Source: Chlorogloea sp. CCALA 695 (lineage in GTDB: Bacteria > Cyanobacteriota > Cyanobacteriia > Cyanobacteriales > Chroococcidiopsidaceae). From it: 64,000 nt of DNA. Of this stretch, positions 419 through 63,174 are shown piece by piece; the first letter of the stretch is position 1; every line of letters begins with the position of its first letter. Below the pieces are notes generated by a model that saw only the letters and a list, made by a program, of their open reading frames with translations, made no database searches and was not told the DNA's origin. The stretch spans positions 62,001 to 126,000 of the forward strand of contig NZ_PVWN01000007.1 of NCBI RefSeq assembly GCF_003003885.1, in the 5' to 3' direction. The translations under genes and the position numbers were made by a program.

Positions 419-636
419 GGAGCCTAATTTTGTAAAAAGGGACAAGGGCAGATAAAAGGGCTAAGGCAAATTTTATTTAACTTTGGTTTTTCTTTACTGC
501 CGTCAAAGCTTGCTTGCAGCCTTACTGTAATGTGTTTTGTGCCATTTTGCTCCGCAATTATATCGTCATTAGGCTACGTCTATAGAGATAACAAGGGTGA
601 CTTGTACGAAACAAAACTTTATCATCTTAATTAGGT

Positions 637-650
637 CTACTATTTAGTAG
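637..650. promoter_or_regulatory. Dyad upstream of crtR (candidate operator)
   Basis: CTACTA-TT-TAGTAG is a perfect 6-bp inverted repeat about 30 bases before the crtR start, next to its ribosome binding site. It could be a regulator site or a small 5'-UTR hairpin. No matching regulator is identifiable, so this is only a candidate. Confidence 0.3.
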
Positions 651-679
651 GTGAAAATTAATTATTCAAGGAGTCAACG

Positions 680-1600
680 ATGCTAATGTCGGAGGCAAAG
701 AAGCCACTGACAACTGTTCCTAGGGAGTTTCTCAGCCCTCCAGGCGATCGCAACCCTACTTTAGCAATGTTTGTAGCGGCAATTAGCGCGATCGCACTAT
801 CCAATTTTGGTTACTGGCTTTGGGAATGGCCTCACTGGTGTTGTTTTATAACTAATACGATTTCTCTACATATTTGCGGCACGGTAATTCATGATGCGTG
901 TCATAAATCTGCCCACCGTAACCCGTTGGTTAATTCTATTTTGGGTCATGGTAGCGCCTTGCTACTCGCTTTTGCTTTCCCGGTATTTACGCGGGTACAT
1001 TTGCAGCATCACGCCAATGTCAACGATCCAGAAAACGATCCCGATCATTTTGTCTCTACCGCCGGGCCTTTATGGCTAATTCCCGTGCGGTTTTTGTACC
1101 ATGAAATATTTTTCTTTAAACGTCAACTTTGGCAAAAACAAGAATTATGGGAATGGTTTTTTAGTCGCGCCCTAGTGGCATTTATTTTCTACATCTCGAT
1201 TCAATACCACTTTTTGGGCTATATTCTCAATTTTTGGTTTATTCCTACGGCTATAGTAGGTTTGGCTTTGGGGTTCTTTTTTGATTATTTGCCTCATCGT
1301 CCCCATCAAGAACGCGATCGCTGGAAAAATGCCAGAGTTTACCCCGGTAAAGTTCTCAATATTTTAATCATGGGGCAGAACTACCACTTAATTCATCATT
1401 TATGGCCCTCTATTCCTTGGTACAACTATCAAAATGCTTATTATGCCACTAAGCCGCTTTTAGATGCTAAAGGTTGCTACCAAACTTCTGGGTTGCTGCA
1501 ACAAAGAGACTTTTGGAGCTTTATTTACGATATTTTTATTGGTATTCACCCCCACAAAAAAGCCGTAACCCTAGAGCAAAAAGAGGTTGCACCACAATAA
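680..1600 (+). CDS. crtR: Beta-carotene hydroxylase CrtR (fatty-acid-desaturase superfamily)
   Basis: Membrane di-iron hydroxylase that adds 3-hydroxyl groups to beta-ionone rings. In cyanobacteria it makes zeaxanthin and takes part in myxoxanthophyll synthesis. The 306-residue length is usual for CrtR. The histidine boxes are all present: HDACH at 71-75 with H79, HLQHH at 107-111, HRPH at 206-209 and HLIHH at 236-240. Hydrophobic membrane segments lie between them. An AAGGAG six bases before the ATG supports this start; a second in-frame ATG two codons later is possible. It converges on the chorismate mutase gene, with four bases between the stops. It links functionally to cruF/cruG elsewhere in the window. 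Distinguished from the related ketolase CrtW by overall sequence feel, so the function call is strong but made by recognition. Confidence 0.9.
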   Translation: MLMSEAKKPLTTVPREFLSPPGDRNPTLAMFVAAISAIALSNFGYWLWEWPHWCCFITNTISLHICGTVIHDACHKSAHRNPLVNSILGHGSALLLAFAFPVFTRVHLQHHANVNDPENDPDHFVSTAGPLWLIPVRFLYHEIFFFKRQLWQKQELWEWFFSRALVAFIFYISIQYHFLGYILNFWFIPTAIVGLALGFFFDYLPHRPHQERDRWKNARVYPGKVLNILIMGQNYHLIHHLWPSIPWYNYQNAYYATKPLLDAKGCYQTSGLLQQRDFWSFIYDIFIGIHPHKKAVTLEQKEVAPQ

Positions 1601-58890: not shown

Positions 58891-60480
58891 GTGACTGATA
58901 CAGGTGCAGTTAGACCAACCAAAAATACCATTCAATCGCCTCAAGTTCCCCTCAAAAGCTGGATTGCTGTAGGGGGAGCGATGCTAGGCGCATTTATGGC
59001 AGTGCTAGATATTCAAATTACTAATGCTTCGCTTAAAGACATTCAAGCAGCTTTGGGGGCAACCTTAGAAGAAGGTTCTTGGATTTCTACCGCTTACTTG
59101 GTGGCGGAAATTGTAGTAATTCCGTTAACTGGATGGTTGGCGCGGGTATTCTCTACCCGTTTGTATTTGCTAGCTAATGCGATCGCTTTTATCTTCTTTT
59201 CTGTTTGCTGTGCGTGGGCGTGGAATCTCCCTTCAATGATTGTTTTCCGTGCCTTGCAAGGCTTGGCGGGGGGCGTATTGATCCCCATGGCGTTAACCAT
59301 ACTTTTGACCACCTTACCCCCCGCCAAGCAGCCTATTGGGATGGCAATGTTTGCAATTACGGCGGTATTTGCTCCAGCGATTGGCCCTACTGTGGGAGGA
59401 TGGTTGACAGAAAACTTTAGTTGGCACTACATTTTTTATCTCAATGTGATTCCGGGAATCATGCTGGTAAGCGCGGTTTGGTATGCTGTCAGTCCTCAAC
59501 CCCAACAATTGCACCTGATTAAACAAGGTGATTGGCTTGGGATAGCTTCTATGGCGATTGGCTTGGGGTCGTTGCAAGTAGTTTTAGAAGAAGGAACTCG
59601 TAAAGATTGGTTTAGTTCGCCGTTAATTTTCCGGTTATCTATAATTGCCGCAATTTTCTTAACAGCGTTCTTTTGGATTGAACTTACTCGCAAGCAACCT
59701 TTTATTAATCTGCGTTTGTTAGCAAGGCGTAACTTTGGTTTAGCTAGTATTGTCAATGTCTCTTTGGGGATCGGGTTGTATGGCTCGGTGTATATTTTGC
59801 CCTTGTATTTAGCCCAAATACAGGGTTATAACCCGTTACAAATTGGTGAAGTAATTGCCTGGTTAGGATTGCCTCAATTACTAATTGTGCCTTTAGTGCC
59901 AAAGTTAATGCAGCGCCTTGATAGTCGATTATTAATTGCGATCGGTGTCAGTCTGTTTGCGGTTAGTTGTTTTATGAATTCAACTATGACGCACGATACA
60001 GGTATTGACGAATTAAAATGGTCGCAACTTGTACGAGCGCTCGGACAACCGTTGATTTTTGTACCTTTGACAACGATCGCTACCGCCGGAATTGAAAAAG
60101 AGCAGGCGGGTTCTGCTTCGGGTTTATTTAATATGATGCGTAACTTGGGTGGTTCAATTGGAATTGCGGCTTTAGCAACATTATTGACGAGGAGAGAGCA
60201 ATTTCACTCTAATCGTTTAGGTGACTCGGTTTCGCTGTATGACCCAAATACTCAACAGCGCATCGAGCAGTTGAGTCAGTATTTTATTAGTCGCGGTGCA
60301 GATTTGAGTACAGCGCACGATCGCGCGATCGCAACTATCAGCAACCTTGTCCGCCGAGAAGCTTATATAATGGCTTTCAACGATTGTTTTTACTTTATTG
60401 GCTTTGCGTTGTTGTTGAGTGGGTTAGCCATTATTTTCTTTAAGAAAGCTAAGGCAACTGGCGGCGCGATCGCTCATTAA
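58891..60480 (+). CDS. DHA2-family MFS drug exporter, EmrB/QacA type
   Basis: 529 residues, about fourteen helices. [20 protein letters not shown] in helix 1 and [20 protein letters not shown] at helix 2, plus [20 protein letters not shown], are EmrB signatures. With the HlyD/EmrA adaptor two genes upstream it probably forms a tripartite pump. GTG start at 58891 (about 101 bases after the EntS-like gene). The stop overlaps the convergent PCD gene by four bases. Confidence 0.92.
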
Positions 60481-60824
60481 TTTGCAGCGATTTGGTCAGT
60501 TTTTGCCGCCATAATAAAATCGTTGCGATGCAGTCCACAAATGGCGTGTGTCCACCAAGTTACAGTTACTTTTCCCCATTCAGTTAGTAAAGCGGGGTGA
60601 TGTCCTTCAACTTCGGCGGCTTCACCGACTTTGTTTGTAAAGGCGATCGCGCTAACAAAATCAGGAAACGTATAAGTACGCTCTAAGCGCGGTTGTCCTT
60701 CAACTTCAATCATTTGCCAATCGGGAATTTGTGGCTTAAGTTCGGTTATATCTTGCTCAGTGACGCGGGGTGCATCTTTGTTACAAGCTGTACATTTTTG
60801 TTGGGTGAGATTTTCCATATTCAT
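60477..60824 (-). CDS. Pterin-4a-carbinolamine dehydratase
   Basis: 115 residues. The PCD fold carries EVEGHHPAL (H75-H76-P77) and the later WTHAICGL with H93, which form the dehydratase active site. It recycles tetrahydropterin cofactor or acts in folate/pterin metabolism; in cyanobacteria PCD proteins are sometimes linked to photosynthesis, with the role unclear. A short N-terminal CTAC motif (11-14) is an uncommon addition that could bind metal. No hydroxylase is nearby. Confidence 0.88.
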
Positions 60825-60850: not shown

Positions 60851-61252
60851 TTAATTTGCTGTCAATATTTGAAACCCTGCTTGGGAGAAATGATCCTCAA
60901 AAGTTAAAGCTTGATTTACTCCTCTCTCCCGCATCACTATAAAAGAGATACAATCAACCAAACCCCATTTTTTATCTGGATACTTATATAACTCCAAAGA
61001 CTGAGTAAATAAATATGGAGTAATTTTGACAACTTCTACTTCATCTGAAGCCATACACTTTTCAATAAATTCAACTGCTTGTTGCTTATAATTTTTTGCT
61101 AGTGCGTTGCCTATTTCCAATAAAATTGCTTCTGTCATTAGCCAATGAGTCCCCTCAAATTTATCTGCTAAGTCTAAAGCTTTTTGGTGATATTGGTCTT
61201 TTTCGTTAAATAGTGCAAATATAAATCCTGTATCCACGAATATTTCACTCAA
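60851..61252 (-). CDS. PIN-domain ribonuclease, VapC-like toxin candidate
   Basis: 133 residues from a TTG at 61250-61252 ([17 protein letters not shown]), with AGGAG nine bases upstream. The longer frame to 61312 overlaps the upstream gene. PIN acidic residues: D7, E41, D100 (WGLVDCISF) and D120 (TFEDHF). Such proteins are Mg2+-dependent RNases, commonly toxins with a small antitoxin gene upstream. Here the preceding gene is a 301-residue membrane protein whose last 23 residues look like an antitoxin tail, 13 bases away. Confidence 0.85.
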
Positions 61253-61265
61253 TATTCTTTTCTCC

Positions 61266-62171
61266 TCACATATATTTCTCGTAATTAGTAGAGAAATCAG
61301 CAGGAGCATCAATTTTTATTTTTCTCATCTGCGACATAAAACTCTCTTTTTCGTCAGACTGTCCTAGCTTAGGTTTTTGCACATCTTGCTTAACTTGAGC
61401 TTTTTTTAGACAGGACAAGCATTTATTTAATTTGTCTATTTCCGATCTGAAAACTAAGCCATTAACCATACCAACTATTATGGGATAAAGCGCTACTAAT
61501 GGTAATTTTAGTGAAATTAGAAATATATTATTAAAAGACTTAAACCCTTGTTCACCATAAAAATATATTACAATAAAAGTAATTAATATGGGAAATGATA
61601 ATAATACATTGTAGATAACCTTTTCATTAATTTGTGTATTTCTAACTTGTTTTTCTATTTCTATTTCGTAAAGCTTTAATTTTTCTTCTGAAATAATAGT
61701 ATTACGAAGTAATTTAACTGCTGCTTGCTCCATTATAAACTCGTCCCTTATTTTTTCAAAGGTTGTCTTTGTTTGATTTTTGGCACTTGACTTTGCCAAC
61801 GAAATTAATCTCACAAGCTCTTTCAAAGTTGAACCGAAAGCAATAATAATTACTACTGCTTGCATTCCAACAAGAAACAATACTATATTAACTTTGTCTG
61901 CAATTATGATGAGAGGAGCTATGACTGAAAATACAATAATGAAAAAAATTATAGAGCGTTGATTTAATATTCTGTGAATTGGATTTGAGAAAAAATAGTT
62001 TTTTTCAGAAGATTCAGGATGAATAATCTTCAACAAAACATCTATAAATTGCCCGAAATCTTTTTTATATTGTTCTTCTTCATGTTTATCTAAAAATGAA
62101 CTTACAGATTCTTCTAAATTAGATTTATTATTGTCAATTTCGTTTTCAGGCAAATGTGGATTGCTAATCAT
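61266..62171 (-). CDS. Four-helix membrane protein with antitoxin-like C-terminal tail
   Basis: Unrecognised 301-residue protein. Two membrane helices at about 74-113, a charged middle (about 115-185) and two more at about 190-240. The final residues MSQMRKIKIDAPADFSTNYE KYM are soluble and charged and resemble the short N-terminal/linker sequences of cyanobacterial antitoxins that precede PIN toxins. AT-rich compared with neighbours, suggesting possible transfer. It overlaps or nearly touches the PIN gene, implying co-expression. The fused-antitoxin reading is inference. Confidence 0.55.
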   Translation of the reverse strand: MISNPHLPENEIDNNKSNLEESVSSFLDKHEEEQYKKDFGQFIDVLLKIIHPESSEKNYFFSNPIHRILNQRSIIFFIIVFSVIAPLIIIADKVNIVLFLVGMQAVVIIIAFGSTLKELVRLISLAKSSAKNQTKTTFEKIRDEFIMEQAAVKLLRNTIISEEKLKLYEIEIEKQVRNTQINEKVIYNVLLSFPILITFIVIYFYGEQGFKSFNNIFLISLKLPLVALYPIIVGMVNGLVFRSEIDKLNKCLSCLKKAQVKQDVQKPKLGQSDEKESFMSQMRKIKIDAPADFSTNYEKYM

Positions 62172-62307
62172 TTTTATAACTTGAATCCTAAAATAATCTA
62201 AGCTGTTAATGTAAAAAAGTTGTTGAATTTAAGTTTTATATAAACCTAAGAGAAACCTGTAGTTGACAGCACAGATGTATTATACATTGTACTATAAACG
62301 CTGGAAA

Positions 62308-63174
62308 TTAAAATAGTCTAAGTTGCGTAGTAGGATTGTCAATTTCATCCCAAGGTAAGGGCGGAATAGGCACATTATGCTGTTGTAATAGTTGGTGGAA
62401 GTAACGAGCATTATGAGGCGATCGCACTTCCATTGGACAATGAACAAAAAAGTAAATCTGCGTACCTTGACGCAAAGCGCGATCGCAAAAACTAACCCAT
62501 TCTTTTAAATAACTCTGATTAAATTGCTGTTGAGGATGACTAATAAAGCGAATTAAAGTAAAGGGTGCAGTCACGCTAAAGTTTACAGGTAAGTTTGGTT
62601 TACGGCTTTCGCTGTGTAGCTGCGCGTCGTCTGGCGCATTATAAATAGGGCGAGAATCAAGCAAAACTCTACCGATTCCTAGCTTTTCTAAAATAGCTGT
62701 TAGCTTGTTATTATGAGGTTCTTTAAACCAATCAGGATGACGCACTTCTAAAGCAAGTGGTGCTTGATGCGCCCAAGCTTCAAGAAACGTTGTTAAATCA
62801 GTCAGTAATTCTGGACTATAACTAGGAGGAAGTTGAGCAAAAATTACTCCTAGGCGATCGCCTAACGTCTGCATTTGCTCTAAAAAGCTTAACGCGCCAG
62901 CAATAGAAGGTTGCAACAAACCTTGATGAGTTAATAGTTTGGGCAACTTTAAGCAAAACTTAAAACTTGGCGGAGTTTCTGCTATCCAGCGCTTTAAAGT
63001 ATCTTGGTTGGGAATGGCGTAGAAAGTCGTGTTACCTTCAACCGTTGAAAAGACTTCGCTATACAATCGTAAAAATTCGCTGCTACGGCTTTTTGACGGA
63101 TAAAAGTCTCCGACCCAACCTTTGTAAGACCAAACAGCACAACCGATGCGGAAATTCATGTCAAGTAATTCCAT
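62308..63174 (-). CDS. DUF72 family protein
   Basis: 288 residues of the DUF72 TIM-barrel-like family: RIGCAVWSYKGWVGDFYP, FSTVEGNTTFYAIPNQDTLK, FCLKLPKLLTHQ, FAQLPPSYSP, LEVRHPDWF and IYFFVHCPMEVRSPHNARYF. Function is unproven; family members have been suggested to act in DNA or metal-related processes, without a settled reaction. An alternative start is the ATG five codons downstream. It is divergent from the thioesterase gene with 35 bases between starts. Confidence 0.85.
   Translation of the reverse strand: MELLDMNFRIGCAVWSYKGWVGDFYPSKSRSSEFLRLYSEVFSTVEGNTTFYAIPNQDTLKRWIAETPPSFKFCLKLPKLLTHQGLLQPSIAGALSFLEQMQTLGDRLGVIFAQLPPSYSPELLTDLTTFLEAWAHQAPLALEVRHPDWFKEPHNNKLTAILEKLGIGRVLLDSRPIYNAPDDAQLHSESRKPNLPVNFSVTAPFTLIRFISHPQQQFNQSYLKEWVSFCDRALRQGTQIYFFVHCPMEVRSPHNARYFHQLLQQHNVPIPPLPWDEIDNPTTQLRLF

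Follow-up and report, generated by a model that had tools for sequence, protein, structure and literature searches.

Organisation of the locus

The stretch analysed here as a whole (hereafter the window) comprises 64,000 nucleotides of Chlorogloea sp. CCALA 695 and carries a locus of two genes on its reverse strand. The first of these (61266..62171, minus strand) is a putative membrane-anchored antitoxin gene of 301 aa, with an N-terminal domain of four predicted transmembrane (TM) segments and a C-terminal antitoxin-type tail, an assignment based on the open reading frame, its relatives and a dN/dS of 0.40. The second (60851..61252, minus strand) has a TTG start and encodes a VapC20-like PIN RNase toxin of 133 aa, recognised by Pfam, by PDB sequence matches, and by an AlphaFold2 (AF2) model and Foldseek. 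Both genes agree with the original prediction of a four-helix protein with a tail, followed by AGGAG and a TTG-start PIN RNase: the 301-aa frame has four hydrophobic segments and ends in ...MSQMRKIKIDAPADFSTNYEKYM before its stop, and the PIN frame (61252-60851, minus strand) is preceded by GAGGAG, which overlaps the TGA of the membrane gene. The stop of the membrane gene and the TTG of the PIN gene lie 13 nt apart, while in the related loci of G016, G574 and G011 (our handles for genomes) the antitoxin gene overlaps the PIN gene. A coupled antitoxin gene directly upstream of the toxin, as expected of a VapBC pair, is accordingly present in the window.

The locus is flanked on one side by a DUF72 gene (62308-63174) and on the other by a gene for pterin carbinolamine dehydratase (PCD; 60477-60824, Pfam E 2.2e-30), which adjoins the pair in G000, G005 and G016. 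In G004 (L119) and G003 (L120) the gap between DUF72 and PCD is occupied by other genes, namely a 365-aa membrane protein, which we take to resemble signal peptidase, and a 134-aa membrane protein; with contents that differ in this way, the interval may serve as a hot spot for insertion. A palindrome, ATGTATTATACAT, is found just 5' of the membrane gene (62275-62287), where it overlaps a promoter-like site; it was dropped as a candidate element because it is absent from the upstream stretch of G005. The promoter scan returned 15 sites against 8.2 expected.

The PIN toxin

The window PIN exceeds the Pfam cut-off clearly (39.8 bits versus 23.6; E 8.3e-10), and its AF2 model (pLDDT 87.9) has the VapC fold. 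Among solved structures Foldseek places it closest to 5wzf, VapC20 (TM 0.86, 30% identity), which ranks first among solved PINs in sequence searches as well (E 1.1e-8; profile E 7.3e-13). VapC20 of M. tuberculosis is a 23S rRNA endonuclease that cuts the sarcin-ricin loop, as stated in the title of the PDB entry.

The acidic residues of the window protein are D7, E46, D100 and E119. In an alignment of 97 PIN homologues the first three columns are nearly invariant (D7 in 95, E46 in 95, D100 in 96), and column 119 is D in 95 of the 97 sequences and E in the window alone, a difference that also sets the window PIN apart from VapC20. The acidic set originally named, D7, E41, D100 and D120, holds for D7 and D100; its other two members do not hold, column 41 being a mixture of E, D and Q and column 120 mostly R or K, and their places are taken by E46 and, in the window, E119. 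PIN homologues occur in 38 of 60 related genomes; a PIN scan of genome contigs gave only 2 loci out of 112 pattern matches.

The C-terminal tail

The last ~27 residues of the membrane protein (residues 275-301, core IKIDAPADFSTN; 61269..61349, minus strand) share homology with small antitoxins of cyanobacteria, namely with their toxin-side C-terminus; the genes for these antitoxins lie directly upstream of homologous PIN genes. These small antitoxins end, with many variants, in the motif [A/G]P-x-D[F/W]-x-x-N-x-[D/E]-x-Y-(L/I)-x-G-E-K, which is found upstream of most of the PIN homologues examined. A profile built from 13 small-antitoxin tails, with no membrane protein among its rows, matches the window tail with E 1.5e-13 as the sole match in the whole 5.2-Mb genome, and in whole-genome searches it likewise finds the tails of G016 (E 3.8e-12) and G005 (E 7.7e-11). 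Antitoxin homologues of the last residues, the search for which the original prediction had proposed, were found in this way, and its suggestion that the tail is a fused antitoxin gains support from this match and from the recurrence of the layout in other genomes. Antitoxin C-terminal segments of such type bind the toxin.

In a survey of the phylum with a 17-row profile that included membrane tails, the tail was present in 55 of the 386 cyanobacterial genomes sampled, and all tail frames listed were of at most 150 aa except that of the window (327) and one weak match, in G125 (E 0.006, model positions 10-21 only), which was taken as chance. Long tail-bearing frames in G559, G579 and G590 were rejected as fusions, as they have no PIN match and look like genes run together. 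Against PDB sequences the best match of the tail profile was at chance level (E 0.33), with no solved complex among them. Two frames of 180-182 aa (L143, G492:C69; L144, G462:C1) carry the tail motif near their N-terminus, followed by an unrelated C-terminal part, and no homologous PIN was seen in the stretches fetched around them.

The membrane domain

By hydropathy (Kyte-Doolittle), the TM segments of the window protein are predicted at residues 73-91 (TM1, 61899..61955), 94-112 (TM2, 61836..61892), 185-203 (TM3, 61563..61619) and 216-234 (TM4, 61470..61526), all on the minus strand. The protein consists of two hairpins, split by a loop of 72 residues between TM2 and TM3 (61620..61835, minus strand) that is rich in K/R (14 residues) and predicted to be cytoplasmic, and of a C-terminal stretch of 67 residues. 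In the window, G005, G016 and G574 proteins alike, the outer loops measure 2-18 aa and K/R residues are found mostly in the long segments. This distribution, together with the short outer loops, would suit a topology in which both termini, and with them the tail, lie in the cytoplasm. A model predicted with AlphaFold from two sequences was discarded (pLDDT 37.5, pTM 0.20).

The small size and N-terminal DNA-binding domain of typical VapB antitoxins are not found here, the protein having 301 aa and four TM segments, with no match to a DNA-binding model in Pfam or NCBIfam. It differs in the same respect from VapBC pairs with antitoxins of the DUF2281/COG5559 or AF2212-like type, with which the locus shares the order of antitoxin and toxin, the PIN toxin and the toxin-side tail of the antitoxin: where those pairs have a small N-terminal module, soluble or DNA-binding, a predicted four-TM membrane domain is found here.

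Recurrence of the arrangement

Four further cyanobacterial genomes preserve the complete layout of four-TM domain, tail and PIN, two of them in the window's family and two in other families, a recurrence that rules out a local accident as the source of the fusion. In the congener G005 the genes are arranged as in the window (identities of 53% for the membrane protein, 52% for its domain and 67% for the PIN), and G016, of another genus of the same family, encodes a membrane protein of 304 aa with tail and a PIN that is 63% identical. A version of 337 aa is found in G574, from another family (the same locus as that of Xenococcaceae cyanobacterium MO_167.B52), and one of 272 aa in G617, likewise outside the family of the window; in G617 and also in G011 only three TM segments pass the hydropathy cut-off, the fourth of G617 being weaker by eye. 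Two loci are clearly broken: the copy in G014, situated some 2 kb away from PCD, is disrupted, while G009 (L109, G009:C114) retains, without a membrane part, a remnant tail in a frame of about 51 aa and a broken PIN start. A contig labelled as a Tatlockia MAG (JACCVJ010000102.1, L053) encodes the same membrane protein as G005 and looks cyanobacterial, so that its label is probably wrong.

A four-TM antitoxin lies directly upstream of the toxin in 5 of 99 distinct PIN loci (window, G005, G016, G574 and G617), these loci being mostly best matches and remaining from 114 locus identifiers after removal of 6 without PIN match and of duplicates. The rest have short soluble antitoxins, one soluble fusion of 262 aa, a few frames of 100-193 aa without membrane hairpins, or no call; the loci for which the motif rule gave no clear antitoxin include L155, L159, L163 and L168, where short antitoxins are seen by eye.

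In the aligned sequences a conserved toxin-side tail is joined to a conserved, predicted four-TM domain, which stands in place of the N-terminal half of the small antitoxins. The window locus and its relatives probably represent a type II toxin-antitoxin pair of VapBC-like kind whose antitoxin would be an integral membrane protein.

State of the window copy

The tail of the window protein stops at NYEKYM. The TGA that ends the frame, the GEKNIE encoded in frame behind it and a further TGA (61245..61268, minus strand) probably mark where the tail used to end, and compare with the RGEKRTD terminus of G005. The window tail lacks these last six residues, removed by the TGA, and by this shortening, together with E119, the copy may be weakened. 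A stronger claim, that the window pair is decaying, with a tail cut by the TGA and a PIN weakened by the change from D to E at position 119, draws on the same in-frame remnant, on the uniqueness of E119 among the 97 aligned PINs and on the clearly broken loci of G014 and G009. Against it, both frames are otherwise open, the YxxGEK end is absent altogether from several small antitoxins, and a Glu at the fourth acidic position can still bind metal. The substitution pattern in a Nei-Gojobori comparison of window and G005 also speaks against decay: dN/dS is 0.38 for the PIN and 0.40 for the membrane protein (0.13 for DUF72 and 0.07 for PCD), and within the latter protein the constraint is strongest in a block of 30 codons in the central loop (0.06) and in a block behind TM4 (0.08). 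We therefore consider decay unlikely, and it would in any case be compatible with a membrane-bound antitoxin in the family at large, for the study of which G005 or G016 offers a better pair than the window.

The membrane domain family

The membrane domains of the window and G005 clearly form one family, and the four-TM domains in general look related, as judged from sequence comparison: in block shuffles, the pairs window-G617, G005-G617, G016-G574 and G016-G617 scored above 60 of 60 shuffles and G574-G617 above 57 of 60, whereas for the membrane parts of window-G016, window-G574, G005-G016 and G005-G574, respectively 34, 46, 19 and 34 of 60 shuffles scored as high. Several members share a motif close to [KQ]C[LI]xxLxxA behind TM4. 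A profile made from the tail-less domains of five members matched 13 of 276 genomes of the order at E 0.01 or better; the matches beyond the members of the model were G535 (5.5e-17), G011 (1.7e-12), G014 (2.3e-5) and G012 (2.9e-5), and five others were weak (0.005-0.008). Four-TM domains without tail and without a toxin directly downstream are found in G535 (L225) and G012 (L228), and the domain is for this reason not only an antitoxin part. The weak match in G477 (L233, E 0.008) likewise has neither tail nor adjacent toxin, and upstream of it lies what we take to be a DUF433-like and DUF5615-like pair.

The domain appears modular. In G011 it carries a different tail, which corresponds to positions 33-65 of the 65 of NCBIfam TA_VapB (E 7.2e-12; 45.7 bits, against a full-length cut-off of 60), matches the end of Pfam DUF2281 below cut-off (E 1.1e-4), and is, like the window tail, homologous to known toxin-binding segments. 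The stop of this antitoxin gene overlaps the ATG of a different PIN, which is shortened to 103 aa and falls just short of the Pfam cut-off (E 2.6e-4, 22.0 bits versus 23.6). Conversely, G617 (L170) and G586 (L182) have nearly the same PIN (99 of 104 residues identical) and similar tails, while the N-terminal domain is a membrane domain in the former and a soluble domain of unknown family in the latter.

The copies without tail in G535 and G012 also fit a device with two effectors, in which the four-TM part would be a pore former of the SLATT/DUF4231 type and the tail would recruit the PIN. Further hints in this direction are similarities below threshold, of the G005 protein to SLATT_1 (E 0.038; 14.0 bits versus 41) and of the G535 protein to DUF4231 (E 0.0035; 18.2 bits versus 24.7) and to DUF2721 (E 2e-6; 28.2 bits versus a cut-off of 28.3). 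As these scores imply, membership of SLATT or DUF4231 is not reached, and the membrane part of no member scanned passes the curated cut-off of any Pfam or NCBIfam model; PADLOC returned nothing for the three proteins tested, which include the membrane proteins of the window and G016. On balance, a pore-forming effector appears distinctly improbable. Searches for relatives elsewhere gave no match in plasmids for the membrane proteins of window, G617, G574 and G011, and no relative of the membrane alignment among 239 pattern matches in viral contigs.

Integrity and origin of the fusion

A rival reading takes as the working antitoxin a short peptide translated from an internal ATG (residue 279 or 282); the membrane protein would then be a separate product that happens to include it, and the fusion only apparent. 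The tails of the window, G005, G016 and G617 do carry a Met at their start, but this position lacks one in G574 (NLFKELKNIKI) and is L or F in several small antitoxins, so that the residue looks structural. The frame across the membrane part is moreover under selection, its dN/dS of 0.40 indicating that the membrane ORF is a selected protein, and we regard an internal start as very improbable. That the fusion is a chance read-through or an assembly artefact is scarcely credible, since beyond its rarity among the PIN loci (5 of 99) nothing speaks for it and its recurrence, with a conserved frame in independent assemblies from three families, contradicts it.

A PIN tree of 98 rows, built on few columns, unites the sequences of the window, G005, G016 and broken G014 in one clade (support 95/81) and groups G574 with G617/G586 in a second (97/84). 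As the four-TM label takes three changes on this tree, a single origin is not established; both one old origin followed by losses or swaps and two origins fit.

A probable membrane-anchored antitoxin

If the antitoxin is indeed an integral membrane protein, its N-terminus, central loop and tail would lie in the cytoplasm, and the tail would bind and block the PIN and keep it at the membrane. The TM domain would replace the DNA-binding or dimerising half of the small antitoxins, and control would shift from binding of an operator to the fate of a membrane protein, as set by membrane damage, membrane proteases or a halt in synthesis. Once the anchor was lost or cleaved, the PIN would be free to cut RNA, possibly at the sarcin-ricin loop of 23S rRNA as does VapC20. 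The outer loops are so short that a sensor of external ligands is unlikely; if anything is sensed, it is more likely the membrane itself or its proteases, while the sensing of envelope damage, as originally proposed, is a speculation about the anchor.

Membrane anti-sigma factors such as RseA and RsiW are released through intramembrane proteolysis. They may serve as an analogy of working, as a membrane protein here, too, would keep a cytosolic effector inactive, and no homology is claimed. A more general reading, which is roughly as likely as not, would make the four-TM domain an interchangeable cyanobacterial antitoxin anchor, mounted on the toxin-binding tails belonging to at least two PIN families where the DNA-binding half would otherwise stand, with the state of the membrane or proteolysis governing release as in the anti-sigma factors.

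Several known systems bear comparison. The part available of the catalogue for Synechocystis includes PIN/DUF2281 pairs (PMC4963859). In Caulobacter a membrane protein, HigX, is encoded beside the toxin-antitoxin pair higBA, which constitutes its likeness to the present locus, and it is described, in the accessible part of that study, as a transcription factor acting independently of HigBA and not as an antitoxin (PMC13384398). A broad survey of 2009 left out pairs of a membrane protein and Xre on the ground that none of the type II systems detected by then included a membrane component (PMC2701414). Phrase searches of the literature yielded no transmembrane or membrane-bound antitoxin and no membrane-bound PIN toxin in cyanobacteria, which is weak evidence, with most subscription papers and all bioRxiv preprints outside their scope.

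It has long been asked which signals release type II toxins, and an antitoxin built into the membrane would narrow the candidates to membrane damage, membrane potential and membrane proteases. Toxin-antitoxin pairs could then act as switches that respond to the state of the membrane, and the related cyanobacterial genes suggest antitoxins tied to the membrane rather than to DNA. Antitoxin halves would, moreover, be freely swapped, as in G617 and G586, where toxin and tail are kept and the N-terminal domain alone changes. A further replacement of the N-terminal part is seen at L142 (G476:C177, about 580-1368, plus strand), where a frame of 262 aa combines ~200 soluble and probably helical residues with the same type of tail and is followed by a PIN.
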